Notes under the pieces: model-generated
Seen by the model: only the letters and a program-made list of their open reading frames with translations
Told to the model about the DNA's origin: nothing
Databases searched by the model: none
Program-made: the position numbers and the translations under genes
NCBI GenBank assembly: GCA_033763895.1
Contig: JANRJQ010000010.1
Coordinates: forward strand, 810,146-874,145
Direction: 5' to 3'
DNA from: Chloroherpetonaceae bacterium
GTDB lineage: Bacteria; Bacteroidota; Chlorobiia; Chlorobiales; Thermochlorobacteraceae
DNA: 64,000 nucleotides
In this document: positions 35,318-42,261 of the stretch, piece by piece
Layout of the letters: each line of letters begins with the position of its first letter
How positions within the stretch are numbered: the stretch's first letter is position 1

Positions 35318-35354
35318 TTTGATAAGTTTTCTTGGCATATCAGGAGTAGAATGG

Positions 35355-35479
35355 CGAGGGGCTTTGCGAAGTGGCGGATTTCGGAGCACTACACTGTCAA
35401 CCAGCTATGAACTTGAATAGAAGCACAAAGCTTCAAGTTTGCATTTCACCCCGACTGATGAAAAACCCGTGTTATGTGC
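35355..35479 (-). repeat. attC-like site S1 (array left end)
   Basis: Left arm GGGGCTTTGCGAAGTGGCGG, right arm CCCCGACTGATGAAAAACCC ending in GTTATGTGC. The left outer end lacks the ATAACG bases seen in S2, so the boundary with the chromosome is degenerate. About 84 of 101 central positions match S3b in a hand alignment. It lies 25 bp after the stop of the VOC gene. Confidence 0.7.
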
Positions 35480-35503: not shown

Positions 35504-35920
35504 TTACTCTACGTTTTCGTAAAAAGTCAGTAAGTTTCCGTATAAGTCCAAAGTTGGAAATTCCCTTGTTCCGTAATATGTTGTTTCTATTTCCGACTTT
35601 TCGTTGTGAAGCACATTTTTTGCTTTCAGTTCGTTATACAGTTCGTCAATCCCTTTCACTTCAATTCTGCAACTGTGTGTTCCTGCCAAAAAACTTTCTG
35701 ATCCACTACTGATTGGTTTTAGAAACAGAAATATGCTTTTCCATTTCCAACTGTTATTACAGGAAGCCCACAAATGCAGTTCAATGTCGCCCCGAACTAA
35801 AATTGCAAAAGTTTCTTCCTTGTGTCGGCAGTCAAACCCGAATTTGTTCTTGTAAAACTCAACCGATTTGTCAATCTGTCGGACGGGGAACGCTGGTATC
35901 GTTTTTAATAATTTTGTCAT
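35504..35920 (-). CDS. VOC family protein, bleomycin-resistance-like (cassette gene)
   Basis: A 138-residue protein of the vicinal-oxygen-chelate superfamily closest by eye to bleomycin-binding resistance proteins: FPVRQIDKSVEFYKNKFGF at the start, ELHLWAS, SGSESFLAGTHSCRIEV, and TLDLYGNLLTFYE at the end, in the order seen in that family. Such proteins sequester bleomycin-type glycopeptides as a dimer. Actual binding is untested. The gene occupies nearly all of a unit bounded by GTTATGTGC (35471) and GCACATAAC (35954), 34 bp before the start and 25 bp after the stop. Confidence 0.75.
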   Translation of the reverse strand: MTKLLKTIPAFPVRQIDKSVEFYKNKFGFDCRHKEETFAILVRGDIELHLWASCNNSWKWKSIFLFLKPISSGSESFLAGTHSCRIEVKGIDELYNELKAKNVLHNEKSEIETTYYGTREFPTLDLYGNLLTFYENVE

Positions 35921-35953
35921 CGGTTTGTCCTTTTACGGTGTCTTCTTAGGGTT

Positions 35954-36090
35954 GCACATAACGGTTTCGGGCTTTGCGTTCGGGCGGGTTTCGGAGCACA
36001 AAAGCTTGTTTTATTACTGATGTTTAATAGAATTACTACCGTTGAGTTTTGCACTTCAACCCGCCTGACGCAAAACCCTTGTTATAGGGT
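35954..36090 (-). repeat. attC-like site S2
   Basis: The best-preserved site. The left arm reads ATAACGGTTTCGGGCTTTGC, then GGCGGGTTTC; the right arm reads CAACCCGCCTGACGCAAAAC, then CCTTGTTAT. GGCGGGTT and GGGCTTTGCGT pair with AACCCGCC and ACGCAAAACCC with a few unpaired bases, as in folded attC sites, around a central region of about 50 bp without long stems. Confidence 0.75.
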
Positions 36091-36427: not shown

Positions 36428-36952
36428 TTATTTAATTCTCCGTTGTCTGCTGTAATATTCATCGTCCACTTTGCCGTCTTGGTCAAAGTCCTCAACTCCC
36501 CAATATTCTACAAAAAATTTGTCCACCTTTATTTTATATTTATAAGTCACTCGTTTAGGAATAGTGTCTTGAATTATTAGCGTGTCATTTTCAATTCTCC
36601 AAGTTCCGGCTGGGTCATAAATAATGCTGTCTTGAAGATTTTTGTGAACAGAATGGTAAGTTCCGTCATTGGCAAAGTAGGTTTGAATATTTCTGGTTTT
36701 CATTTTTTCTTCCCATTCGTTTCCATTTACCTCAATTACCTTGACGCTGTCTGTATTTTGGAAACTGTGCATTGTGATTTTCATTTCGTCTATTTCCCAA
36801 GCCCCTACCAAATCAGATTGTTTCTTGGTAGCACAAGAAAAAACAATGATAGTAAGGGCGATAAAAAAATGTCCTTTATTATTTGCGATTGTAGTCATTG
36901 TTATTTTTTTAATATTTAATTTTTTCATTGGTATTATTTTTTTAATGTCCAT
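36428..36952 (-). CDS. Lipocalin-like lipoprotein (cassette gene)
   Basis: A protein of 174 residues (166 if the second ATG at 36928 is used). A hydrophobic stretch (FFIALTIIVFSC) ends in a lipobox cysteine, so it should be anchored in the envelope. LVGAWEIDEMKI and GTWRIENDTLIIQD are typical of lipocalin-like or META-type beta barrels in Bacteroidota. Near the end DFDQDGKVDDEY resembles an EF-hand calcium loop (DxDxDGxxxD). It shares a unit with the KOW gene since no site separates them. Function unknown. Confidence 0.65.
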   Translation of the reverse strand: MDIKKIIPMKKLNIKKITMTTIANNKGHFFIALTIIVFSCATKKQSDLVGAWEIDEMKITMHSFQNTDSVKVIEVNGNEWEEKMKTRNIQTYFANDGTYHSVHKNLQDSIIYDPAGTWRIENDTLIIQDTIPKRVTYKYKIKVDKFFVEYWGVEDFDQDGKVDDEYYSRQRRIK

Positions 36953-36996
36953 ATTTTGTCAGTAGTACTTTCATAGTTGTTGTGTCGTTTTAAAAT

Positions 36997-37113
36997 GCCC
37001 CATAATGGGGAGCGGCTTTGCGGGGGGTCGAAGGGCGCGAAGCAGCCCGAAGACTCACGCAAAACCGATGTTCAACGAAGCGAAGTGAGCGAACAGCGGT
37101 GTAGCCGCTCCCC
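36997..37113 (-). repeat. attC-like site S3a, composite
   Basis: Outer arms GGGGAGCGGCT (37007) and AGCCGCTCCCC (37103) pair perfectly. Nested inside is GGCTTTGCG ... CGCAAAACC, the same stem as in S2 and S4. A further small hairpin AGCGG/CCGCT lies at the right. Its left end ATAATGGGG only roughly complements the GTTATAGGGTG at the right of S2. Possibly several sites or minimal empty units fused together. Confidence 0.55.
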
Positions 37114-37138
37114 GTTCAGCTAAACGCAGCGAAGCGGA

Positions 37139-37275
37139 GTTAAGCTGAACGTTTTGGCGCTTGGCGCAGTGGCGGGTTTCATAGCACTAAACTGTCAACC
37201 AGCACTACACTTGAATAGAAGCACAAAGGTCCAAATTTGCAAATCACCTCGCCTGATGAAAAAAATTAATAAATG
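37139..37275 (-). repeat. attC-like site S3b
   Basis: About 83% identical to S1 over 101 bp, including TTGAATAGAAGCACAAAG in the centre. Left end GTTAAGCTGAAC complements GTTCAGCTAAAC 14 bases to its left, enclosing a spacer too short to hold a gene. The right end (AATAAATGTG) is degenerate. Confidence 0.65.
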
Positions 37276-37283
37276 TGAAGTAT

Positions 37284-37622
37284 TTATTTTTGATTTTTCT
37301 CAATTTTCCTAAGTTGTATAATATTCCCTTTGTTATCGGTTTTAATTTTAAAAATATCATTTTTGGTTTTGTATATTAACTCAATAATTTCATCATCTCT
37401 TTTGTACTGAAAATGAGATAAATAAATTTGAGAGGGTTTTAAATTATATTCATTTAGTAACTTATCCTTTATATCTGATTTGATCTTTATAGTATTAACA
37501 GCCTCTTTATCGAAATTTTTTGATTTAATTGCATCAAATAGTCTCATTGTCAATTGCACTGTTAGACCACCAGCAACTGCAATTAAATATGTTGTCCAAA
37601 AACCACTCGCACCTTTTCGCAA
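37284..37622 (-). CDS. Small membrane-anchored protein, second gene of a two-gene cassette
   Basis: A 112-residue protein, apparently from a TTG at 37622. One hydrophobic helix (TTYLIAVAGGLTVQLTM, about residues 10-26) is followed by a soluble part of about 85 residues, Lys/Ile/Asp-rich, with strand-like IIELIYKTKNDIFKIKTD. Its first 40 bp overlap the end of the upstream gene, so translation is coupled. No family recognised. The pairing of a soluble protein with a small membrane protein could fit an effector-and-anchor or toxin-and-immunity design, but nothing in the residues proves it. Confidence 0.5.
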   Translation of the reverse strand: MRKGASGFWTTYLIAVAGGLTVQLTMRLFDAIKSKNFDKEAVNTIKIKSDIKDKLLNEYNLKPSQIYLSHFQYKRDDEIIELIYKTKNDIFKIKTDNKGNIIQLRKIEKNQK

Positions 37623-38050
37623 ATTTCGTTACTTTTAATAATTTTGAATTCAACTACTTCATCACTTAGTATTTCTTTTATATTTTGAAGTTCATTATCA
37701 CTGAAATAAATGTTGGTAGTGTTAATCTGAATACATTCTTCAAATTCAATATTTGAAAATGGTTTGTAGATGTCAATGTTGTTGTCAGTAATTTTGTACT
37801 TTGATAAATAGTTTAATAATTTCTCAATTGATCTATCTCCCATTAATACTATACTTAGTATAGAGTATTGTTCATAGTTATCACTACTTACTTCTATGCC
37901 TTCTCCGAGTAAACTATATAAATCTTGTTCTAATTTTGATAATTCTATGTCGTCAATATAAGTAGCGAAATACCTCGGTTTTGTTTCAATTACATTATGA
38001 AAGTCATCATCGTAAATGTGTGTGAAAATTTCGATATGTAGTGTATTCAT
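37583..38050 (-). CDS. Hypothetical protein, first gene of a two-gene cassette
   Basis: About 155 residues from the ATG at 38050, which lies 9 bp inside the left end of site S4; another ATG at 38062 would start within the site itself. It is acidic (many D, E, N, I, Y), with MNTLHIEIFTHIYDDDF at the start and YFSDNELQNIKEILSDEVVEF near the end. No signal peptide, helix bundle or catalytic motif is recognised. The next gene overlaps its 3' end. The gene is bounded by S4 and S3b, so these two genes would move as one cassette. Confidence 0.55.
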   Translation of the reverse strand: MNTLHIEIFTHIYDDDFHNVIETKPRYFATYIDDIELSKLEQDLYSLLGEGIEVSSDNYEQYSILSIVLMGDRSIEKLLNYLSKYKITDNNIDIYKPFSNIEFEECIQINTTNIYFSDNELQNIKEILSDEVVEFKIIKSNEICEKVRVVFGQHI

Positions 38051-38058
38051 ATTAGTTA

Positions 38059-38193
38059 ACATAAAAGTTAAAGGCTTTGCGTAACATGAAAGTTTTTGTT
38101 TTAGAATATTAACTAACGGAACTGTAATTGAATAGATGTACAAAGCACCAAGTATGCAAGTCAGCCCGCCTGACGCAAAACCCGTGTTAGCTG
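38059..38193 (-). repeat. attC-like site S4
   Basis: Left end ACATAAAAGTTAAAGGCTTTG aligns with ACATAACGGTTTCGGGCTTTG of S2 and pairs with the right arm TGACGCAAAACCC. The right end is GTGTTAGCTG. The central TTGAATAGATGTACAAAG matches the conserved centre of S1 and S3b. Confidence 0.65.
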
Positions 38194-38228: not shown

Positions 38229-39239
38229 CTATTTTTTTGTATACTCTTTTGCTAGTTCGTCATATACTTTTACGGAATAGTAGTCTTTAGAGCCGCCTTT
38301 GGGGTTATCTAAGTTTAAATATCTTGGTTTATGAAATTTAGGATTGTTCTTTAGTTTTTTCAGTTTGTTATTAAAATTATTATTGATTTTAAAGTCTGAA
38401 AAGAGTTTTTTGCATTTTACAGTCACATCGTGATACGTTTGTGTGTAAACTGTCCTGAATAAATTTTCCTCATCAATTTTAATTTTTTTTACTCCTTCTT
38501 CATTTTCGTCATCTGTCAAAACAAACTTACTTATAACATTTTCAACTCTAATTGCTGCTTTCTTTTTGTCCCTAGTGATTGCAGCTACAACATCAGCATT
38601 TTTTATCCTGCTTTCATTTATTAATGACATTTTGAAGCTAAATAATATGGAATCTTCTATTCCTTCGTCTGAAATTTGTTCCGTGGATTTTATTATACTC
38701 TTTACAAAGGACTGAACGGCTTTAGATGATTTTTCAATTTGTGATGCGTTTGAAAGAAAGTCTATTGGTGAAGCTGGCTTTTTAAAGCCGATTGGAAGTA
38801 GAATTAGATTTGTCTCGCTGGCAATATCAATTCCGAAATACTTCAGAAGAAAATCGTGATACAACAAAATGTTTTTACTCAATAATGAGAAAAGCAAGAC
38901 ATCAATGTCATCCTGATAAAAGTGTATAGTATTGCAGCGATACTCATAAATTTTTTCAAGGTTTTGTTTAGCTACTGAAAAATCCTTCCCCAATTCACCT
39001 GCAACAAACGCTAAACATTCGTCAAATGGTTTAGTTGTCCCGTCAGGTCGAATGACTATGACTTTTGGGAAGTGTTTTATAATAAAAGATTTTAAAAGCA
39101 ATTCCCAAGAATTTATATTTAGGATTGCACACAACTCGTAGCGAAAAGGGAATGTCGGCTTGTTGTGTATTTCTATACAGGCAAGTTGTGATGATTTGCT
39201 ATTAAGTAAAAGCTTGTCCAGAACTTCTTCCATTTTCAA
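38229..39239 (-). CDS. DUF3644-like, HEPN-type protein (cassette gene)
   Basis: A 336-residue soluble protein. The N-terminal half resembles DUF3644 (SWELLLKSFIIKHF, then DECLAFVAGEL, then LLFSLLSKNILLYHDFLLKYFG). YEYRCNTIHFYQD contains Rx4H, the RNase motif of HEPN domains, in the expected place after a helix. The C-terminal part is Lys-rich. HEPN proteins with this motif are common in phage-defence and toxin systems where they cut RNA. The family match is by eye. The stop is 36 bp from S4 and the start 53 bp from S5. Confidence 0.6.
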   Translation of the reverse strand: MKMEEVLDKLLLNSKSSQLACIEIHNKPTFPFRYELCAILNINSWELLLKSFIIKHFPKVIVIRPDGTTKPFDECLAFVAGELGKDFSVAKQNLEKIYEYRCNTIHFYQDDIDVLLFSLLSKNILLYHDFLLKYFGIDIASETNLILLPIGFKKPASPIDFLSNASQIEKSSKAVQSFVKSIIKSTEQISDEGIEDSILFSFKMSLINESRIKNADVVAAITRDKKKAAIRVENVISKFVLTDDENEEGVKKIKIDEENLFRTVYTQTYHDVTVKCKKLFSDFKINNNFNNKLKKLKNNPKFHKPRYLNLDNPKGGSKDYYSVKVYDELAKEYTKK

Positions 39240-39291
39240 AGCTAATTTGTAAGTTACATTTTCAGGTTAGCAGTGTCGTCATAGCCTGACC

Positions 39292-39425
39292 GCTAACGGC
39301 TGGGGGTGTGACCAGTTTGGGCGAACTGAGCCAAGATTTCATCATGCGATACTGCGCCCCGCTGCGAGCCGACCCGAACGCCTAACCCGTACATCCCAAA
39401 TTGGTTACACCCCTTGTTGTGCTCA
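39292..39425 (-). repeat. attC-like site S5
   Basis: GGGGTGTGACCAGTTTGGG pairs with CCCAAATTGGTTACACCCC with two mismatches, the longest stem in the array. Ends are GCTAACGG on the left, CCTTGTTGTGCTCA on the right. GCTAAC complements GTTAGC at the right end of S4, across the DUF3644 unit. Confidence 0.75.
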
Positions 39426-39432
39426 GTTTTTT

Positions 39433-40602
39433 TTATCTTATCTCAAGCAAATTCATTTTATCAAAGAATTTTACTTGATATTCCATTAATTCATCATAAG
39501 TCATTAAATGAATATAGCCTTGATTGAGTTGTCTCATTATTTTTTCTAGCTCAAATATTCGTTGGTCTTTTTCTTCTTTTCTACCAATTAGAATGTTATA
39601 ACTAATTTTCTGGGGAACCATTCCGAAAATCTTATTAAGTTCGGTTTTATTTTGGGCACTTTCTATATAATCCTTATAGTCATTAACTTGTATAATATGT
39701 TCAATCAGTTTTGAAAGAGGGGCGTTATGTCTTTTTTTACTCTTCATAAAAGTTTCATTAGGCAATTTTATTTCTAAAAGATTTAAGTCTGTTCTGTAAT
39801 TAAAATTTGGTTTTAGAAAGAAATCAGGCTCTTCATAATTTACTTCGTTTTTCATTAATCTAGGTTCATACCAATATCTTGAAAAACTGTCTCTTAACAA
39901 AAAGTATTTATTTTCTCTAAAAAACTTATGATAAACTTTTTCTTCTCCCTTTTTTCCTATTCTTGAAGAACGTTTAAGTAGTTTTATAAACTCATCTATG
40001 GATTTTTCGATTTGCTTAGTGTTAAAATTCAACCAGTAATAATTAAGTTTTCTAGGAAATAATTTGAAGTTTTCAGATAATATCTTTGTTCCTATATGAG
40101 TTTTTCTTTTTTCACTAAAATATTTAGAATAATCAATAATACCTGAATTAAATCTAATCCCAAGTAAATCAAGTTCATTTAACACCGATTTTCTCCAACT
40201 TTTAATTGTTGATATAAAATCGGAAGTAAATAAATGAATTTTGTCTATACCAATATCATCAATTGTTAAATCATAGTTATGAAACGCTGTTTTGTTTTCT
40301 TCTGAACTTACAATTAAACAAATAGGCATTTCATTAAGGTTGAAGTCTCTTTTAGAGTAAGTTCTTTCGAAATCTTTTCTTAACCAATTCTTGAATTCTT
40401 CGGAACGTTCATAACCTACAATGCTATATGTAATTATTAAGTCTAGGGGCGATTGAAATTCTACTATATAATTATTAATGAAATCTTTTGCTGAATGAAA
40501 TGAATTACAAAAGGTTAGCGAGTCGCCTTCGCATAAATCAGACAACTCATTTCTTAAACTATATTCATTATTCCCTTGATTAGTAATTACTAATATGCGC
40601 AT
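39433..40602 (-). CDS. Shedu-like (DUF4263) nuclease with N-terminal receiver-like domain (cassette gene)
   Basis: A 389-residue protein. The C-terminal part fits DUF4263, the nuclease domain of Shedu phage-defence proteins: EEPDFFLKPN, then LNLLEIKLPNE (a PD-(D/E)xK-type D...ExK core), then HIIQVNDYKDYIE and ISYNILIGRKEEK. Residues about 1-140 look like a receiver or pseudo-receiver domain (MRILVITNQGNNEYSLRNEL, then LDLIITYS), probably a sensing module. Shedu proteins cut DNA on phage infection. The start is 11 bp from the S6 boundary and the stop 8 bp from S5. Subfamily is not established here. Confidence 0.65.
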   Translation of the reverse strand: MRILVITNQGNNEYSLRNELSDLCEGDSLTFCNSFHSAKDFINNYIVEFQSPLDLIITYSIVGYERSEEFKNWLRKDFERTYSKRDFNLNEMPICLIVSSEENKTAFHNYDLTIDDIGIDKIHLFTSDFISTIKSWRKSVLNELDLLGIRFNSGIIDYSKYFSEKRKTHIGTKILSENFKLFPRKLNYYWLNFNTKQIEKSIDEFIKLLKRSSRIGKKGEEKVYHKFFRENKYFLLRDSFSRYWYEPRLMKNEVNYEEPDFFLKPNFNYRTDLNLLEIKLPNETFMKSKKRHNAPLSKLIEHIIQVNDYKDYIESAQNKTELNKIFGMVPQKISYNILIGRKEEKDQRIFELEKIMRQLNQGYIHLMTYDELMEYQVKFFDKMNLLEIR

Positions 40603-40612
40603 TTTCTAAAAT

Positions 40613-40690
40613 TGAGCACAACTCGTTTATAGGTGTAGAAAAACTACATAAAAACAGACGAATGGCTGGCTTGGTGTAGTTTTAGTGTCA
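40613..40690 (-). repeat. attC- or attI-like site S6 (array right end)
   Basis: TGAGCACAAC (40613) is the exact reverse complement of GTTGTGCTCA at the right of S5, 1.2 kb away. Next to it AAAACTACA and TGTAGTTTT form a short stem around a 25-bp spacer. Its composition differs from the other sites, so it may be the attachment site at the head of the array. The recombinase remnant begins just beyond. Confidence 0.55.
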
Positions 40691-41021
40691 TAAATCATCA
40701 AATGGACGTTTAATGTTTTGATGGTTTTCTGCGATGTAAAGATCTCTTTTTATTTGTCCCTCAAAAAGCCACATTTAAGGTTTGTATGCCTTATTATAAT
40801 TCCTCAGCATTTCTAAAATTTTTTAAGAAATCGGAACATTTCGATCTTTTTAACTTTCTTTCGTTTAATGAGCAGAATTCCACGATTACTGTCAATCTCG
40901 GCAGGATTGAGGTAAAGCAATTCATTTCTTCTCGGTCCGCAAGCGTAAATCAAACTTAGCCTCGTGCGGTGCGTGATGTTGCCGGGGCTTCCTGAATGAT
41001 TTTTTTCTTTTGCTCAAATAT
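40690..41021 (-). pseudogene. Decayed tyrosine recombinase (integrase) fragment
   Basis: On the - strand one frame reads HRTRLSLIYACGPRRNELL, then YLNPAEIDSNRGILLIKRKK, which is the box I region of a tyrosine recombinase (conserved arginine in GPRRNEL, lysine hairpin after it), ending at a TAG (40813). Beyond it, in a shifted frame, MLRNYNKAYKP, a stop, then MWLFEGQIKR and ENHQNIKRP follow, matching the usual continuation before the HxxR box. No start codon precedes it and the catalytic C-terminal part (HxLRH and Tyr) is missing, cut at the array edge. Confidence 0.7.
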
Positions 41022-41046: not shown

Positions 41047-41310
41047 TCAATTACCCACCTCCGAGGTATCCCTTCCCACCTCCGAAGTATCCCCCCCCAC
41101 CTCAAACATGAACAAGTTCATGTAAAAACCGAACTTGTTCAGGTAAAACATCAACTGGTTTAGGTCAGAGAGAAACTGGTTCAAGTCGGAAGTGAACTGG
41201 TTCATGTAAAACATAAACTGGTTCAAGTCGGAACTGAACTGGTTCAAGTAAAACATAAACCGGTTCAAGTCGGAGTAGAACTGGTTCAAGTAAAACATCA
41301 ACGGGTTCAT
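41047..41310 (-). CDS. Possible 87-residue repeat protein encoded by 21-bp repeats
   Basis: Because the tandem unit is exactly 21 bp, this frame stays open and gives heptads such as MFYLNQF and SSDLNQF, each with LNQF, then three acidic units (EVGGDTS, EVGRDTS). Seven-residue periodicity with a hydrophobic pair per turn could form a coil. There is no clear ribosome-binding site, and open frames arise easily in such repeats, so coding is uncertain. Confidence 0.3.
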   Translation of the reverse strand: MNPLMFYLNQFYSDLNRFMFYLNQFSSDLNQFMFYMNQFTSDLNQFLSDLNQLMFYLNKFGFYMNLFMFEVGGDTSEVGRDTSEVGN

Positions 41311-41368
41311 GTTTGAAGTGAACCCGTTTAGGTCAAAGCTGAACTAATTCAAGTATTGAAAGAACGGG
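41054..41368. repeat. Tandem array of fifteen 21-bp units
   Basis: Fifteen contiguous units of exactly 21 bp. The central units follow TTCAAGTCGGAASTGAACTG and TTCAAGTAAAACATMAACTG, alternating to give a 42-bp higher-order period; the first three read CCCACCTCCGARGTATCC. Outer units are more diverged. There are no spacers between units. Confidence 0.9.
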
Positions 41369-41416
41369 TTAATCTTTAAGGTGAGCGCCTGATGAAATAA
41401 ACGCGCTCGCTTGGTA

Positions 41417-41896: not shown

Positions 41897-41996
41897 AGGA
41901 CGAGGAAATTTAAGTTTGTTGGACTATAGAGATACAGGATTTCAGAATTTAGAAAAGGGATGGGAAATTTTAAAGCGGATTTTTCAACTTATTCAA

Positions 41997-42080
41997 GTCA
42001 TTTCGAACGGAGCGAAGCGAAGGGATAAATCTCTGGTGTGCGGAGGGTCTGAGATTTCTCGCTGCGCTCGAAATGACAAA
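41997..42080. repeat. REP-like palindromic repeat, copy 1
   Basis: 84 bp with arms GTCATTTCGAACGGAGCGAA and GCTGCGCTCGAAATGAC that can pair into a long imperfect hairpin, around a GAAATCT ... AGATTTC inner stem. It matches copy 2 at 83 of 84 positions. Confidence 0.85.
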
Positions 42081-42111: not shown

Positions 42112-42177
42112 GTGTCATGTGGTGGTGGTTTCGACAAGCCGTGGCCACCTCAGTTTTTTTGAGTGCAGGAAATGCGA

Positions 42178-42261
42178 GTCATTTCGAACGGAGCGAAGCG
42201 AAGGGAGAAATCTCTGGTGTGCGGAGGGTCTGAGATTTCTCGCTGCGCTCGAAATGACAAA
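42178..42261. repeat. REP-like palindromic repeat, copy 2
   Basis: Same orientation as copy 1, 181 bp away, with a single base difference. The near identity points to recent spread or gene conversion. No target-site duplication was evident. Confidence 0.85.

Follow-up and report, generated by a model that had tools for sequence, protein, structure and literature searches.

In this study, we analysed a stretch of 64,000 nucleotides (the window) from a Chloroherpetonaceae bacterium and assign its gene at 39433-40602 to the Shedu (SduA) family. We put at about two in three the probability that this gene encodes a single-gene Shedu anti-phage nuclease which forms the first cassette of an integron-like array and whose N-terminus, a pseudo-receiver, gates the nuclease. 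The gene and its two domains are as follows:

39433..40602, minus strand: Shedu (SduA) gene, 389 aa, ATG start (open reading frame list, HMM matches, Foldseek)
39487..39945, minus strand: PD-(D/E)XK nuclease domain (SduA_C), residues 220-372, with D260, E277, K279 and Q305
40165..40602, minus strand: N-terminal receiver-like (pseudo-receiver) domain, residues 1-146, proposed from fold alone at low confidence

The nuclease assignment is not a chance match, since SduA_C/PF14082 (DUF4263) aligned to residues 220-372 with 52.8 bits (E 6.5e-14) in the Pfam search, against a curated cut-off of 27 bits, and the PADLOC SduA model matched the 389-aa protein with E 2.9e-8. The DUF4263 motifs that had been quoted from the letters alone are all found in the open reading frame: EEPDF at 257-261, LLEIKLP at 275-281 and ILIGR at 337-341. 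In alignments of 27 rows and of 39 Shedu proteins, D260, E277, Q305 and G340 were invariant or nearly so, and K279, which completes E-x-K with E277, is in place across the 39. A C-terminal SduA_C PD-(D/E)XK domain with D, E-x-K and Q is likewise shared by EcSduA (8ps4, 8ps5), BcSduA (8ti8, 8ti9) and VcSduA. Structurally, the nuclease half of the AlphaFold model is mostly confident, and the top Foldseek matches of the model were EcSduA 8ps4 and 8ps5 (E 3.3e-7, probability 1.00), with BcSduA 8ti9 (E 1.3e-4, probability 1.00) and 8ti8 also among them. Searching PDB sequences with a Shedu profile led to Shedu chains; the ribosomal-protein matches returned by the single Shedu sequence were put down to chance. 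In the PDB-chain alignment, E277 lies over a BcSduA glutamate that is alanine in the 8ti9 chain, as would be expected of a catalytic mutant. The PD-(D/E)XK fold and the D/ExK residues are both present, and the Shedu-like nuclease proposed by the sequence-only reading is borne out: the protein is a Shedu family member with a complete D/E-x-K core.

Since the nuclease step is known from other Shedu proteins, we infer the same step here. EcSduA captures DNA ends in an N-terminal clamp, and its PD-(D/E)XK domain makes a nick at a fixed distance (PMC12904381, PMC12137116). By analogy, the C-terminal PD-(D/E)XK domain of our protein would most likely nick or cut phage DNA, and the protein as a whole may be expected to act against phages. 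A nuclease role outside phage defence, for example in DNA repair or in restricting plasmids or foreign DNA of any kind, would fit the fact that Shedu nucleases act on DNA ends, which are not exclusive to phages (PMC12904381). We regard it as rather improbable, given the Shedu family itself, the adjoining PDC-S19 gene, and the second Shedu gene and other defence genes found in sister arrays.

The N-terminal domain calls for a more guarded assessment. Shedu N-termini vary and are sensors or clamps in studied members, a GHKL ATPase type being active in Vibrio (PMC12904381, PMC12137116). The protein examined here resembles the Shedu type I nucleases in being encoded by a single gene and in having a variable N-terminal domain, but where VcSduA carries an N-terminal GHKL domain it has a receiver-like one, with neither SduA_N (PF21407) nor HATPase. 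The AlphaFold N-terminus runs in the order beta-alpha-beta-alpha-beta-alpha-beta, with predicted strands at 3-7, 29-32, 55-60 and 94-98, helices between them and a long helix at 122-146; as modelled, this order is compatible with a receiver. The receiver fold is taken from a low-confidence model, in which, for the full protein, pLDDT is about 68-84 for residues 1-60 and below 50 for residues ~83-186, and modelling the N-terminus by itself gave a poorer model than within the full protein. Foldseek searches with two separate models returned nearly all receivers for the N-terminus, with probabilities up to 1.00 and E above 0.001 throughout; among these were the Sln1 receiver 8phx (probability 1.00, E 0.014) and, with the second model, the HupR receiver 2jk1 (probability 1.00, E 5.5e-3).

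This likeness to PF00072 receivers in predicted strand and helix order and in Foldseek matches is not accompanied by likeness in sequence or in signature residues. The Pfam receiver model (PF00072) found no match in the Shedu protein at E<=1, hhalign of the N-terminus against a receiver profile gave a non-significant 4.5%, and a receiver HMM built, together with a consensus, from 31 receivers of the same genome gave three N-terminal pieces scores that about 6-10% of the shuffles scored also attained, which is likewise not significant. When the signature positions were placed by hand alignment to that same-genome consensus, the acidic pair was found to be T7/N8, the phospho-Asp Y59, the Thr/Ser V98 and the Lys F125; in the relative from Mucilaginibacter corticis (L037) the corresponding residues are L/N, Q, I and Q. 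Because all signature residues are replaced both here and in this sole full-length relative, a phospho-receiver sensor is unlikely. The receiver-like N-terminus that had been claimed from the letters alone therefore finds support, at low confidence, in its predicted fold, and none in profile matches or signature residues; the modelling points to a pseudo-receiver at most, that is, a receiver-like fold without receiver chemistry.

Two other readings of this domain deserve weighing. A different alpha/beta (Rossmann-like) domain, for example a nucleotide- or ligand-binding one, might resemble a receiver only in a low-confidence model; the low pLDDT past residue 82, the non-significant profile and HMM tests and the receiver matches that all lie above E 0.001 would agree with this, against which stand the nearly all-receiver matches, at probabilities up to 1.00, from two separate models. 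We consider it the less likely reading, with perhaps one chance in a few. A working receiver, through which a histidine kinase would switch the nuclease by aspartate phosphorylation, is very improbable: the predicted fold is receiver-like and the genome has 75 receiver matches, so that kinases are probably plentiful, but the phospho-Asp position holds Y59 (Q in the relative), the acidic pair T7/N8 and the Lys position F125, and the cassette contains no kinase gene. The preferred pseudo-receiver would thus not be switchable by aspartate phosphorylation and would more likely serve as a domain for regulation and assembly that binds protein, ligand or DNA. In the mechanism that we propose, it would restrain the nuclease until infection, and gating of the nuclease by the N-terminus is to be understood in this inferred sense.

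Relatives of the whole protein are scarce. The M. corticis protein, with 50% identity in the best segment and residues 1-388 matched, was the sole full-length relative found, and its gene is frameshifted near L037 5217-5264. A pair of direct repeats, each about 125 nt long (L037 4814-4940 and 6180-6303), flanks this copy; they are partly palindromic, differ from the repeat family described below and may belong to another mobile unit. Whole-protein searches covering 98 genomes from the order and 395 from the phylum found no full-length homologue besides the protein itself; a profile search, run with no positive control on 395 genomes from a different class, found none either, and none was found in phages, plasmids and viral contigs. 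Among 38 other Bacteroidota Shedu proteins, Pfam identified four SduA_N and two HATPase N-termini and no receiver (0/38). The N-terminus type therefore looks new among the Shedu proteins sampled, although the classification of Gu et al. 2025 might already list one.

The Shedu gene lies in an array whose cassette genes are all on the minus strand and in which several cassettes end in copies of an attC-like repeat of ~139 nt, R1. In the order in which they would be read, the features are:

40816..41013, minus strand: array recombinase remnant, an open frame of 66 aa that lies upstream of the first cassette
40607..40622, minus strand: start of the Shedu cassette, GTTGTGCTCAATTTTA, which pairs with the cassette end
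39416..39431, minus strand: end of the Shedu cassette, AAAAACTGAGCACAAC, which pairs with the cassette start
39298..39415, minus strand: attC-like site of the Shedu cassette, with the long stem GGGGTGT.ACC.ATTTGGG / CCCAAACTGGTCACACCCC seen in the fold
38229..39239, minus strand: second cassette, a DUF3644 / PDC-S19 candidate defence gene; cassette start at 39282-39297
38053..38193, minus strand: attC-like repeat R1
37583..38050, minus strand: third cassette, an unknown ORF with its ATG likely at 38050
37284-37622, minus strand: small unknown ORF of 112 aa, next after the 37583..38050 ORF
37138..37275, minus strand: attC-like repeat R1 with a decayed 5' end
36994..37150, minus strand: geneless cassette containing a short repeat of 84 nt (36994-37077)
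36428..36952, minus strand: lipocalin-like cassette gene (Pfam)
35950..36088, minus strand: attC-like repeat R1
35504..35920, minus strand: glyoxalase / bleomycin-resistance-like (Ble-like) cassette gene
35340..35478, minus strand: last attC-like repeat R1, the end of the array

The two ends of the Shedu cassette, GTTGTGCTCAATTTTA and AAAAACTGAGCACAAC, are complementary at 11 of 13 positions past the fixed GTT, and a circularised cassette would be predicted to carry the junction AAAAACTGAGCACAAC-site-GTTGTGCTCA. The pairing of ends holds across the genome: for its 15 distinct cassettes, the start/end matches added up to 133, permutations averaging 67 (sd 8) and reaching that sum in 0/100000 cases, the ends having been chosen from model matches and in a few cases by reading the sequence, a choice that somewhat favours a match. 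The claim that the gene is a cassette is thus upheld by its matched 16-nt ends and by this genome-wide pairing. Its place as the first cassette also holds, as the array runs one way and the Shedu cassette lies directly downstream of the recombinase remnant at 40816-41013. Best expression from the first position, which had been proposed along with it, is plausible from integron biology (PMC12409362); our scan upstream of the array found no sigma-70-type promoter, and the organism may use others. Two further observations concern this upstream region. At 41047-41376, ten-odd tandem units of 21 nt encode a 7-residue protein repeat (FYLNQF...DLNQF), and at 41991-42080 and 42172-42261 two copies of a 90-nt repeat, 97% alike and with inverted arms (GTCATTTCGAACGGAGCGA), adjoin an lpxB-like gene.

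A covariance model found 28 copies of R1 in about seven clusters of this genome, with the adjoining genes mostly in the same direction as the repeats. The Shedu cassette's own attC-like site falls outside the R1 sequence family and, taken as a whole, folds no more stably than shuffled versions; of the six attC-like sites in the window, two have folds clearly more stable than those of shuffles (z -3.0 and -2.6) and four do not. Other arrays of the genome contain PDC-M65AB, Fic proteins, a MoxR/vWA pair and a UvrD-PDDEXK helicase-nuclease with a cytosine methylase, and the genome's second Shedu gene (L040 12817-13956), which has SduA_N, lies in a cassette of the same repeat family. The geneless cassette also recurs in several arrays of the genome (L099 6795-6950, L100, L102) as a type of about 150 nt with a short repeat of 83-84 nt and the ends GTTCAGCT...GCTGAAC.

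Beyond this genome, 30 of 98 genomes from the order carry R1, as do 67 of the 119 Bacteroidia genomes sampled (49/84 genera). In three Bacteroidia genomes with 20 cassettes, the cassette-end test, based on automatic end picks only, gave 189 against 97 (sd 8.5), with 0/20000 permutations reaching that value. In 24 Bacteroidia repeats, 87% of cells in the R1 hairpin were paired and covariation scored 0.478, against 0.164 for shuffled and <0.1 for slid versions, in an alignment fitted to the model, which favours structure. Among the 38 other Shedu loci, R1 lies directly downstream on the same strand in five (L012, L029, L125, L126, L132; gaps of -4 to 71 nt) and about 15 nt upstream in L011, whereas a simple density estimate would predict ~0.04 Shedu loci with an adjoining R1. 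Shedu genes are thus a repeated cargo of R1 arrays. Other cargo was seen in passing. One cassette interval of ~7.5 kb (L141 2529-10054), far above the usual integron cassette size, holds lantibiotic dehydratase, LanC-like and S41 peptidase genes, and an array of more than 10 cassettes (L138) holds a BanI restriction-modification pair, a GmrSD_N protein, an Eco57I-type methylase and a DUF1016/YhcG nuclease. R1 is also carried by Empedobacter and Riemerella plasmids (L142 2221-3134, NZ_CP043636.1; L143 3001-3998, NZ_CP072192.1), in one case directly after lnu(H), which is preceded by arr, and in the other directly before a class D beta-lactamase gene.

As to the recombinase, no integron integrase (IntI) was found in this genome, where only XerC and XerD matched, and none of the nine family genomes had an IntI over the cut-off; 16 of 98 genomes of the order had an integron-integrase match. 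In one order relative (G005), cassettes whose ends have the same format (GTTACCAAGCATTTTA / AAAAACGCTTGGTAAC) lie ~4 kb from IntI, which ties this format to integrons, while R1 near canonical IntI genes of the order gave only two weak matches, both in that genome. Of 16 Bacteroidia arrays examined, eight have a tyrosine recombinase within ~4 kb of the first-cassette end, and it is on that side in all eight (8/8). These are open frames of 246-419 aa, most of them with an extra N-terminal region bearing a W-S...W motif:

L139 5176-6099: Bacteroidia array recombinase
L140 232-969: Bacteroidia array recombinase
L164 6897-8153: Bacteroidia array recombinase
L167 7327-8466: Bacteroidia array recombinase
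L171 7267-8205: Bacteroidia array recombinase
L176 16625-17716: Bacteroidia array recombinase
L177 18489-19631: Bacteroidia array recombinase
L178 12176-13321: Bacteroidia array recombinase

A profile of these eight, run over the window and the flanking DNA of this genome's other arrays, had a single match, the remnant at 40816-41013 on the minus strand (41.3 bits, E 4.1e-11). Six of them, when scanned, scored ~188-209 bits against the integron-integrase model TIGR02249 (cut-off 265), in two pieces split around the IntI-specific additional domain; in the alignment this domain, near patch III and described as defining IntI (PMC9668308), is missing. Their best NCBIfam name was 'site-specific tyrosine recombinase/integron integrase' (NF040815; 204-233 bits against 220). 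In a tree they were separate from Xer proteins (100/100); IntI rows were not in the tree, so their relation to IntI is read from scores and alignment. On these sequence comparisons, the array recombinases appear to be related to IntI but to lack its defining domain.

Could the repeats be ordinary dispersed repeats between unrelated genes, and the array no set of recombination cassettes? The genome without an integron integrase and the several window repeats that fold no better than shuffles might suggest so, yet the pairing of cassette ends (0/100000 here, 0/20000 in Bacteroidia), the strong R1 covariation, the shared direction of genes and repeats, and the recombinase at the first-cassette end wherever one was found, with a remnant in the window, leave this explanation hardly credible. 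The cassette array, our preferred reading, shares with chromosomal integrons and with CALIN (attC clusters without integrase) one-way cassettes, foldable attC-like sites, complementary cassette ends, a recombinase adjoining the first cassette and defence cargo; both defence genes in integrons and integrase-less arrays have been described before (PMC12409362, PMC9024848). It differs in its extended 16-nt cassette ends, in cassettes of up to ~7.5 kb with several genes, and in a recombinase beside the R1 family that lacks the IntI-specific domain and survives in the window only as a remnant.

In conclusion, we see about even odds that Bacteroidota have a widespread integron-like system of their own, with attC-like hairpins of ~139 nt, 16-nt ends and a recombinase without the IntI-defining domain, of which the window would be a decayed example headed by a pseudo-receiver Shedu. 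Its cargo would include defence genes, among them Shedus with new sensors, and restriction systems, with plasmid copies beside antibiotic-resistance genes. Such a Bacteroidota-wide cassette system with a candidate recombinase lacking the IntI-specific domain looks new, and R1 in 67 of 119 Bacteroidia genomes contrasts with the stated rarity of complete integrons in Bacteroidetes (PMC9024848). Non-IntI recombinases at the place of IntI in several arrays make the need for the IntI-specific domain in cassette recombination testable, and R1 arrays offer a search handle for new defence genes. If our reading is true, a pseudo-receiver-gated Shedu nuclease would add a sensor type to the family and would provide a compact test case for the N-terminal restraint of Shedu nucleases.
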